Positions 6,691 through 45,475 of a stretch of 45,475 bases of DNA are shown here, in pieces. This stretch comes from Bacteroidales bacterium. GTDB lineage: Bacteria > Bacteroidota > Bacteroidia > Bacteroidales > P3. The position numbers and the translations under genes were made by a program. The notes under the pieces were generated by a model. The model was not told where the DNA came from. It saw only the letters and a list, made by a program, of their open reading frames with translations, and searched no databases. The stretch lies in assembly GCA_017454015.1 (NCBI GenBank), contig JAFTDW010000017.1, positions 1 through 45,475 on the forward strand, in the 5' to 3' direction. The stretch's first letter is position 1. Every line of letters begins with the position of its first letter.

Positions 6691-7674
6691 TTACAACACA
6701 AGCAATTTCATATTGTCGAGATAGACATTGCCTTCTTTCCCATCGGGGTTGAAAGCCGTGAAGAAGAGGCGGAACTGGGGGTAGTGGCTGTGGTAGCGCC
6801 AAACCTTGCCAAGGTTGATGTATATCTTCTGCCAATGGTCGTTGGCATAGAGCATTATGGCTGAGTTGGTCTGCTCGGTACCGCCCGCCGTGCTGGGCCC
6901 TTTGATGCCTACGCTTAGGTTGTAGTCGGTGCGGTAGTCCATCTCAAGGTAGAGGTATGCCGTGGGGTCGTCCACGGTAACGGTGGTGTCGCCCCAGAAG
7001 TTCAGCTCGGTCATGGCGGCAGGTACATGCACCACTCCGCTGCCAGTGCCGGTGCATATAAGCTCCGGATTGTCGGCCAAAATCTCCACACAGGTGTCGA
7101 GGCTGACGTCCACCTGTATCTTCTCGAAGAATTCATGCCACACCACTTTGGTGAAGCGGTTCATGGTAGTGTTCAGCGTCCCGAGTTGGGTTACGGAGTC
7201 CTCGGCAAGCACTACATTGCTGAGTTTTATCTCGTTATAGTAGGGGTAGGCTATACGCGTGGAGGCTATGCCGTTTTGCTTGATTACGGGGTGTATCACC
7301 ACCCGCTGCGCCACACCTTTGCGCAGCACCGGCAGCTTGCACGGCAGCTGGTACACGCCAAGTGTCCACTCCGCAGTGTCGCCTTCAAAGTATATGCTCA
7401 CCTCGGCGGCATCGATGGACTGCGTGGCAAAGAAGCCGGCGCCATACTGTACCTGCCAGCTGGTCTCGTTGTCGTCGACCACCTTTATGGCATCTATGGT
7501 GAGGTATGCCGGCACCTCTTGCCCACCCTCGAACTTGCTGCAAGAAACAAGCGAGCAAAGGGCAAAAACAACTGCAAATAAAACGTTTTCGTTCAGCAAG
7601 AGCAGTGGAAGCTTGCTTACACTGCCGCAGCCAGAAAACGACTCATGAAATGAAACAATTTTAGTCTTTGTCAT
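6691..7674 (-). CDS. putative lipoprotein with a 57-base repeat inside its signal-peptide region
   Basis: A 327-residue protein of unknown function. Residues 32-46 are a hydrophobic run ending in the lipobox LVSC, followed by SKFEGG, so the mature protein is probably an outer-membrane lipoprotein. The C-terminal 130 residues (from about VVHVPAAMTELNFWG to YLDNMKLLVL) are beta-rich and resemble a jelly-roll or carbohydrate-binding-like sandwich; that fold call is inference. The N-terminus is odd: between MTKTKIVSFHE and LFAVVFALC lie 19 codons derived exactly from the 57-base repeat at 7584-7640. Removing them keeps the frame and restores a compact lipoprotein signal. The start ATG sits in a 9-bp inverted repeat (7671-7696). 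It follows the Omp28-like gene by 50 bases and is probably in its transcript. Confidence 0.8.
   Translation of the reverse strand: MTKTKIVSFHESFSGCGSVSKLPLLLLNENVLFAVVFALCSLVSCSKFEGGQEVPAYLTIDAIKVVDDNETSWQVQYGAGFFATQSIDAAEVSIYFEGDTAEWTLGVYQLPCKLPVLRKGVAQRVVIHPVIKQNGIASTRIAYPYYNEIKLSNVVLAEDSVTQLGTLNTTMNRFTKVVWHEFFEKIQVDVSLDTCVEILADNPELICTGTGSGVVHVPAAMTELNFWGDTTVTVDDPTAYLYLEMDYRTDYNLSVGIKGPSTAGGTEQTNSAIMLYANDHWQKIYINLGKVWRYHSHYPQFRLFFTAFNPDGKEGNVYLDNMKLLVL
7584..7640. repeat. 57-base palindromic element, copy A (inside a coding region)
   Basis: Identical over 57 bases to 45339-45395 and one base different from 45415-45471. It begins CGTTTTC and ends GAAAACG, a perfect 7-bp terminal inverted repeat. 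Inside are AGCAAG (element bases 12-17) pairing with CTTGCT (29-34), and GCAGTG (19-24) pairing with CACTGC (37-42); the two stems interleave. Here it occupies codons of the lipoprotein signal peptide, read from the complementary strand with no stop. No target-site duplication is evident. Confidence 0.9.
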
Positions 7675-39894: not shown

Positions 39895-40541
39895 TCCCGA
39901 CAGTTCGCCAATTTGGTAACGTTAAAAAAATAAGTTGGGACAGAATTGCCCCAGAGGGGCAAACTCTCAATTGCTTAGGCCATGAACTGAGGTCATGTGG
40001 CGAGCCTGCGAACTGAGGTCATGAGCACCTATGAAATAAAAACAAGGACAGCGAATAATACCTTGAAATCAAAATAATGAAATGAGCAGCACCCGTAAAA
40101 ATAAAAACATGGACAGCGAATAGCACCTATGAAGCAAAAACATGGACAGCGAATTGCCGAAGGCTGCGAACTGAGGTCATGAGCACCTATGAAATAAAAA
40201 CAAGGACAGCGAATAACACAAATAGAAATAAAAACAAGGACAGTGAGCTGCCGAAGGCTGCGAACACCTATGAAATTAAAAATATGGACAGTGAGCAACC
40301 CCACATAAGCGTAGCGCAGTGTGGGGCAGCAAGATAGAAAACAACATGCGTCCCGGAGTGAAGAAATGCCAGTGGCATTTCGATAGCGCAGCGGATAACT
40401 GGCGCTCTCAATTTCCCAAGTTATTATTTGCATATCACTTAGGTAAAGAATTTAGCAATCATATTTTTTCACATAAAAAAACATTTTGGACACAATAATT
40501 GTCACACTTTGGTGTTATTTAGGCAAAGTGTAACCAAAATA
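39895..40541. repeat. non-coding field of degenerate ~31-base repeats and palindromes
   Basis: This 650-base gap holds no convincing gene. About six imperfect copies of a unit close to GCACCTATGAAATAAAAACA followed by AGGACAGCGAA begin at 40024, 40089, 40123, 40183, 40215 and 40264. They are interspersed with AACTGAGGTCATG (39973, 40010 and 40169 regions) and GCCGAAGGCTGCGAA (40155 and 40249 regions). Two hairpins follow: CCCCACA/TGTGGGG (40299-40326) and AAATGCC/GGCATTT (40374-40390). Spacing is irregular. Origin unknown; decayed mobile or satellite-like sequence is possible. Confidence 0.7.
40504..40531. promoter_or_regulatory. inverted repeat upstream of a small gene
   Basis: ACACTTTG (40504-40511) and CAAAGTGT (40524-40531) are perfect 8-bp complements with a 12-base spacer, ending 10 bases before the first ATG of the small gene. 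Either a leader hairpin or an operator; TTTG within the left arm could double as a -33 element. Confidence 0.4.
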
Positions 40542-45338: not shown

Positions 45339-45395
45339 CGTTTTCGTTCAGCAAGAGCAGTGGAAGCTTGCTTACACTGCCGCAGCCAGAAAACG
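45339..45395. repeat. 57-base palindromic element, copy B
   Basis: Identical to 7584-7640 over all 57 bases, in the same plus-strand orientation. It has 7-bp terminal inverted repeats and interleaved AGCAAG/CTTGCT and GCAGTG/CACTGC stems. It is followed by 19 bases and then copy C, giving a period of 76. Confidence 0.92.
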
Positions 45396-45414
45396 AGGGT
45401 TGCGAAGAAACCAA

Positions 45415-45471
45415 CGTTTTCGTTCGGCAAGAGCAGTGGAAGCTTGCTTACACTGCCGCAGCCAGAAAACG
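45415..45471. repeat. 57-base palindromic element, copy C
   Basis: Differs from copies A and B only at element base 12 (A to G), which turns one A-U pair of the first internal stem into G-U in plus-strand RNA. The following GAGGG matches the start of the spacer after copy B, so the tandem series may continue beyond the window. Confidence 0.92.
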
Positions 45472-45475
45472 AGGG

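Follow-up and report, generated by a model that had tools for sequence, protein, structure and literature searches.

The 45,475-nucleotide stretch of Bacteroidales DNA analysed here (the window) carries copies of a short repeat that we regard, with a probability of about 0.8, as a non-autonomous mobile palindromic element composed of two consecutive hairpins, bounded by AA|C ends and inserted at (C/G)AA^C targets. The copies are dispersed and sharp-ended, prefer one target, form head-to-tail arrays and carry compensatory changes in their stems. Units are repeatedly in frame within conserved gene families, and the proteins predicted from these genes are ~24 amino acids longer. The window is contig 52 (G000:C52) of the host draft assembly, which comprises 2.31 Mb in 63 contigs and is 93.9% complete.

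Unit architecture and copy number

The initial annotation described three copies of a 57-bp core at positions 7584–7640, 45339–45395 and 45415–45471, closed by the arms CGTTTTC and GAAAACG. All three were located at these coordinates with these arms; the first two are identical, and the third differs by one A to G change. The core is real, but the whole unit is longer than the sharp-ended 57-base element proposed at first. The core continues for 15 bp (tail A, ACTCATGAAATGGAA) or 18–19 bp (tail B, AGGGTTGCGAAGAAACCAA, also found one base shorter) up to an AA|C edge, mostly with C as the next base. Set between AA and C, the type I unit measures 72 bp (or 75/76 bp) and consists of a large hairpin followed by a small one in the tail. 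The first reading had missed the edges at AA|C, the hairpin of the tail, the full length of 72 bp, a second type of core and the in-frame insertion into genes, including that of the copy at 7584.

The complete 72-bp type I unit at 7584–7655 (plus strand) consists of the core (7584–7640) and tail A (7641–7655), and is flanked by AA (7582–7583) and C (7656). It is in frame with an open reading frame (ORF) on the minus strand (6691–7674) that encodes 327 amino acids, has no Pfam match and is lipoprotein-like. The unit is contained in its signal-peptide-like start, which without the unit would read MTKTKIVLFAVVFALCSLVSC (joined by eye rather than by orthologue alignment). The 76-bp type I unit at 45339–45414 (plus strand) combines the core (45339–45395) with tail B (45396–45414) and has AG in place of AA at its left flank. 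The next unit of this array, on the same strand, occupies 45415–45475, where its core (45415–45471) carries the single change; its tail is incomplete because the contig ends there, so that the end of the window falls within an array of the element.

The initial reading of a dispersed, high-identity palindromic element is supported: a search of the host genome and of other Bacteroidales revealed many copies beyond the first three. The parts of the host assembly that were fetched, about 0.32 Mb picked because they carry matches, comprise the window and 73 loci; 142 places were found in them, 20 of them exact 57-mers. Full-length copies numbered 108 at 88 loci, 73 of type I and 35 of type II. Type II units (83–87 bp) have in common with type I both tails and an outer frame, AACGTTTTCG ... 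AGAAAACGA, but a different inner hairpin. Single copies account for 74 loci and head-to-tail arrays of two to four units for the other 14, and the full-length copies are spread over both strands (52 plus, 56 minus). Spacings within arrays were 72 (n = 9), 86 (n = 4) and 76 bp (n = 3), and once each 60, 75, 82 and 83 bp; those between type I units were 72, 75 or 76 bp. BLAST against the host's own genome returned 49 matches. When patterns were counted over the whole genome, ends of tail A occurred 69 times, ends of tail B 34 times and left ends 109 times, with none for each of the reversed patterns used as control. Six host contigs (C18, C26, C27, C30, C47 and the window, C52) terminate within copies of the element, which evidently breaks the assembly; the true copy number is therefore probably higher.

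Fold of the element

The initial annotation placed two interleaved stems inside the core, stem 1 pairing element positions 12–17 with 29–34 and stem 2 pairing 19–24 with 37–42, and read them as a pseudoknot or a switch. The complementarity is present, but a single nested hairpin is better supported. In the copy at 45339 this inner hairpin spans 45357–45380 (plus strand) and pairs element positions 19–24 with 37–42 and 26–28 with 33–35. Among 38 distinct host copies, two-sided changes occurred in four of the 16 pairs of the nested hairpin and in 15 cells, numbers reached by 6 (pairs) and none (cells) of 500 shuffles. None of the pairs of stem 1 changes on both sides, and of its 228 cells (38 distinct rows) 9 are unpaired, though it is mostly conserved. 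The covariation thus does not support the pseudoknot or switch and favours the nested hairpin. Copies that break pairing did not prevail, since 97.7% of the cells were paired. Across species, 11 of 15 pairs showed two-sided changes, in 51 cells versus 4.7 expected, in an alignment that was fitted to the structure and is biased towards it.

When folded as DNA, both window units gave an outer stem with a nested inner hairpin, and in addition the tail hairpin; the 57-mer, as RNA, gave the outer stem and the nested hairpin. Stability relative to shuffled sequences was modest for the window units (z = -1.8 and -2.3, as DNA) and the 57-mer (z = -1.9, as RNA) and higher for type II units (z = -3.0 and -3.6). 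The outer stem was absent at minimum energy from one of five folded units (host copy L027). When single tails typed from the loci were scored, 7 of 20 beat 95% of shuffles (mean stem score 4.65 versus 2.79). The inner hairpin is inverted or self-complementary in five of the 73 full type I copies. Rfam searches returned no family at the curated score and only two chance-level matches far under their cut-offs, in line with the initial statement that no named Bacteroidota family with this sequence was known.

Target site and empty sites

Of 61 copies that are not preceded by another unit, 55 have AA at the left edge, and C or G precedes the AA in 46 of these 55. The base 3' of the unit was C in 37, G in six and T in two of 45 single copies. 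CAA and GAA occur on the left 17 and 15 times with tail A, and six and eight times with tail B; the left flank is thus independent of the tail type and does not derive from the end of the unit itself. As AA or AAC stands on both sides, a duplication of two or three bases looks the same as a target of that sequence. The element is inserted into (C/G)AA^C targets, and the two empty sites described below revealed no duplication beyond the possible shared AA/AAC.

Exact removal of 72 bp yields LSVGRGNSGEPTVISELNGY and AFLAQDKTHQPHGHTWQQCY, which match orthologues without gaps, at two sites, one in a SprT-like and one in an RluA-like protein gene. Among the listed matches of relatives to the SprT-like protein, the alignment splits around the unit, and the matches of the best RluA-like orthologues are split or gapped at it. 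The stretch is absent from all 9 SprT-like and all 11 RluA-like aligned orthologues; these are the ones that join in one frame, from 19 loci fetched for each protein, excluding the host's own. All 29 fetched orthologues of isoleucyl-tRNA synthetase (IleRS) likewise lack the stretch, the exact empty site being undefined here because the loop varies so much in length. The protein of glycoside hydrolase family GH92 has 48 residues between the aligned blocks at the insertion site versus 19 in PDB chain 7zgm_A, that is, 29 extra. By sequence comparison, these units are insertions at places in predicted genes where orthologues lack them.

In the IleRS loci of other species (L080–L109), the loop before AWTTTPWTLPSN holds repeat-like peptides (SDLSDLSDKSD, ENSKLKIEN..FQFSIFNSQL), as if other repeats insert there too.

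Insertions into genes

Of the 84 full copies first examined, 27 lie inside and 57 between ORFs of at least 90 amino acids. Thirteen copies sit at least 30 codons inside ORFs of at least 150 amino acids, and in 10 of these 13 the interrupted ORF is backed by Pfam or by orthologues. Pfam supports GH92, IleRS, the RluA-like and RluB-like pseudouridine synthases, a UvrD-like protein, a cytochrome c assembly/ResB-like protein, NAD synthase, an acyltransferase and a CHU_C protein. In the RluB-like protein the unit is located in the tail before the S4 domain, and in NAD synthase before the synthase domain. The protein that we take to be SprT-like from its HEVAH..H motif (and its orthologues) has no Pfam match and is backed by orthologues. 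The internal copies L018, L026 and L152 are in ORFs without Pfam or orthologue support. Additionally, a truncated unit was found inside a GH3 protein, and terminal fusions occur in, for example, ABC, HRDC, O-antigen ligase and RecN-like ORFs (the last below the Pfam cut-off).

The commonest unit of 72 bp corresponds to 24 codons, and the unit consensus is free of stop codons in three of six frames (by eye), so that many genic insertions keep an open frame with ~24 extra residues. The IleRS copy is read in a frame in which the usual tail A has TGA; the altered tail there contains no stop. Unit length was divisible by three in 12 of 13 internal copies versus 64 of 87 others, a comparison that omits L160 (which repeats L030) and two copies with an unrecognised tail, and that includes one unreliable length (L029, from a loose pattern). 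This difference is too weak to count as proof of selection and is suggestive only. Donation of start codons by tail A, proposed for ORFs beginning with ME.., was discarded, as native starts a few codons downstream are likelier (by eye). Selection may remove insertions that break the frame, and the proteins that carry the insert presumably work.

Occurrence in relatives

Of 120 genomes examined for the genus, 81 were matched by a covariance model of the element; for the 62 better ones the number was 45. Genomes rich in copies are G000 (the host), G013, G044, G047, G073 and G078. The model matched neither of two genomes from another genus of the host's family; elsewhere in the order it matched 5 of 197 genomes, no two of them from one family (E-values rough). 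With BLAST, 10 of 24 other genomes of the genus had matches, mostly by type II, and none of 16 genomes from other families; the type I core was matched no more than weakly, and in few relatives (G005, G013 and G014). In G230, the best genome outside the genus with seven copies, the frame is kept as AACCTTTTC..GAAAAGG and GCC/GGC, and the tail has GAATGAAATTC followed by AAC. An exact 24-mer was found in 12 stretches of three named Bacteroidales metagenome-assembled genomes. Type I appears to have expanded recently from a frame that is older. Five of the 73 copies examined in relatives are within ORFs that extend at least 60 bases on both sides, one of them in frame in a GSCFA gene and one antisense in a Resolvase-domain ORF.

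Two loci of relatives may be mentioned for their surroundings. At L245 (G075, 1501–1589) the unit is antisense, yet in frame, through an ORF with a match to Resolvase (serine recombinase). At L221 (G059, 1501–1590) it is located between ORFs that resemble, by eye, a diversity-generating retroelement reverse transcriptase with an HRDC protein and an FGE-like gene.

Comparison with known repeats

A search of open-licence papers found no description of the element. By description, it is closest in behaviour to the Rickettsia palindromic elements (RPEs), beside which we set it with no claim of membership. Passages of two papers present RPEs as short palindromic repeats, many of them in frame in unrelated genes whose products are thought to work (PMC10969869, PMC3733652). 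The element shares with them its occurrence as an in-frame palindromic repeat in protein genes and its absence from orthologues. It differs in its Bacteroidales host, in its unit of 72–76 bp (type II 83–87 bp) compared to about 150 bp in RPEs, and in having two hairpins with AA|C edges, head-to-tail arrays and exchangeable inner hairpins. It behaves like RPEs in an unrelated phylum.

Like REPs and the CGTC- or GTAG-tagged repeats, the element is palindromic, dispersed and structured. The CGTC repeats are reported from several groups, one of them Bacteroidetes; RPE-4 and RPE-6 belong to them, and they lack a dedicated transposase (PMC3733652). Whereas REPs are palindromes of 20–40 bp with an unpaired GTAG or CGTC-type tag, the core measures at least 57 bp, its CGTTTTC end is paired and its edges are AAC; the Y1 gene of REP/RAYT systems was not found in the host assembly either. 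With miniature inverted-repeat transposable elements (MITEs) the element has its small size, its lack of autonomy and its dispersal in common. Intragenic MITEs can form in-frame fusions according to a passage of PMC10969869, and MITEs are also reported from Porphyromonas gingivalis, which by name belongs to the same order (PMC4596501, PMC5771137). In contrast to MITEs of DDE insertion sequences, with their terminal inverted repeats and target site duplications, the element has true ends, CGTTTTC.. and ..GGAA/CCAA, that by eye do not match as inverted repeats, and a target duplication was not seen. PARCELs are palindromic coding repeats as well, of 25 residues, but are described in PMC2996958 as tandem domains of dedicated ORFs whose function is unassigned, whereas the element forms single insertions into housekeeping genes.

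According to a review, in-frame fusions by intragenic MITEs are not unusual, the frequency in RPEs is unusually high, and other prokaryotes may have a similar mechanism (PMC10969869). Here comparable behaviour is met with in a different phylum, the copies are nearly identical, two genes have an exact empty site, and the genus offers 120 genomes for comparison. It thereby becomes testable what moves such elements, and in what way an inserted peptide is tolerated or used by conserved proteins.

Possible modes of movement

In the mechanism that we propose for the mobile element, the unit, an outer stem with an inner hairpin followed by the small tail hairpin, would move as a folded single strand with the enzyme supplied in trans. 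Such movement would account for the conservation of the fold, for inner hairpins that are exchanged or inverted, and for the constancy of the edges. A linked mobiliser was sought and not found: Y1_Tnp had no match in the host assembly (93.9% complete), and among 83 ORFs within about 1.5 kb on each side of 30 loci of relatives no gene recurred at more than three, the widest-shared one being an ATPase-like ORF (by eye) at three loci. Cargo of phages or plasmids was dismissed after BLAST with one type II unit as query gave no match; a strict exact pattern likewise found nothing in viral contigs, which proves little.

One specific form of this single-strand step would be a REP/RAYT-like or IS200/IS605-derived element whose folded strand is moved by a Y1 HUH transposase, an unlikely alternative in spite of several fitting features. 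End hairpins, a short fixed target, the lack of target duplication and arrays are compatible with single-strand transposition in general, and Y1_Tnp genes are present in 17 of 25 genomes of the genus. Their number does not track that of the copies, however: Y1_Tnp gave no match in the host assembly, where the copies exceed 100, but seven in G001, where there is a single copy. The end tags GTAG and CGTC, as given for REPs in passages of PMC3733652, were not seen. The Y2_Tnp model, which stands for the HUH transposase of IS91/Helitron-like elements, matched none of the 25 genomes, but none of 14 control genomes either.

We are similarly doubtful about a site-specific recombinase, of the integron or another tyrosine or serine type, that would treat the units as cassettes without genes and join them at AA^C (GTT when read on the opposite strand). 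The fixed junction of two or three bases, the direct head-to-tail arrays and the folded site would suit such an enzyme, and so would an unrelated repeat, GGTCATGAGCACC, which has AAC at the start in 36 of 37 cases and at the end in 15 of the 33 with an end found. Integron attC sites have R'' and R' core boxes, which were not seen by eye in the element, and the junction is imperfect, as AA is missing on the left in six of 61 copies and C on the right in eight of 45.

Spread with no dedicated enzyme, through template switching or through gene conversion where there are hairpins and AAC microhomology, would account for the inverted or self-complementary inner hairpins and for mosaics with another repeat. 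These processes usually yield less sharp ends, and the same two ends recur at dozens of unrelated sites in both orientations, which makes this explanation rather improbable. Least credible is a structured RNA or regulatory element between genes (a terminator or processing signal) with genic copies as by-products, because, despite the conserved fold and the majority of copies between ORFs, no Rfam family matches, both strands are equally used and most units are absent at the orthologous gene sites of the relatives compared.

The preferred reading of a mobile element could be extended to a joining machinery shared by unrelated short cassettes (type I, type II and the GGTCATGAGCACC repeat), which would insert them at AA^C and so give rise to intergenic mosaics and to in-frame peptides in housekeeping proteins. 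This extension, to which the AAC joints of the GGTCATGAGCACC repeat lead, is tentative and has a minor though not negligible chance of being correct; if true, both the mobility of DNA and the growth of proteins would have a new route.

The GGTCATGAGCACC..AGCGAAT repeat is present at window positions 40017 and 40175 (plus strand) and at many host loci, in tandem and as mosaics with the element. In some copies (L009, L012, L016, L023, L040, L154, L155 and L163) the inner hairpin is split by this second repeat. Furthermore, an AT-rich repeat, ATAACACGAATTTTACGAATTTG, stands to the left of several copies (L013, L014 and others), with 11 matches at no more than three mismatches in the host loci.
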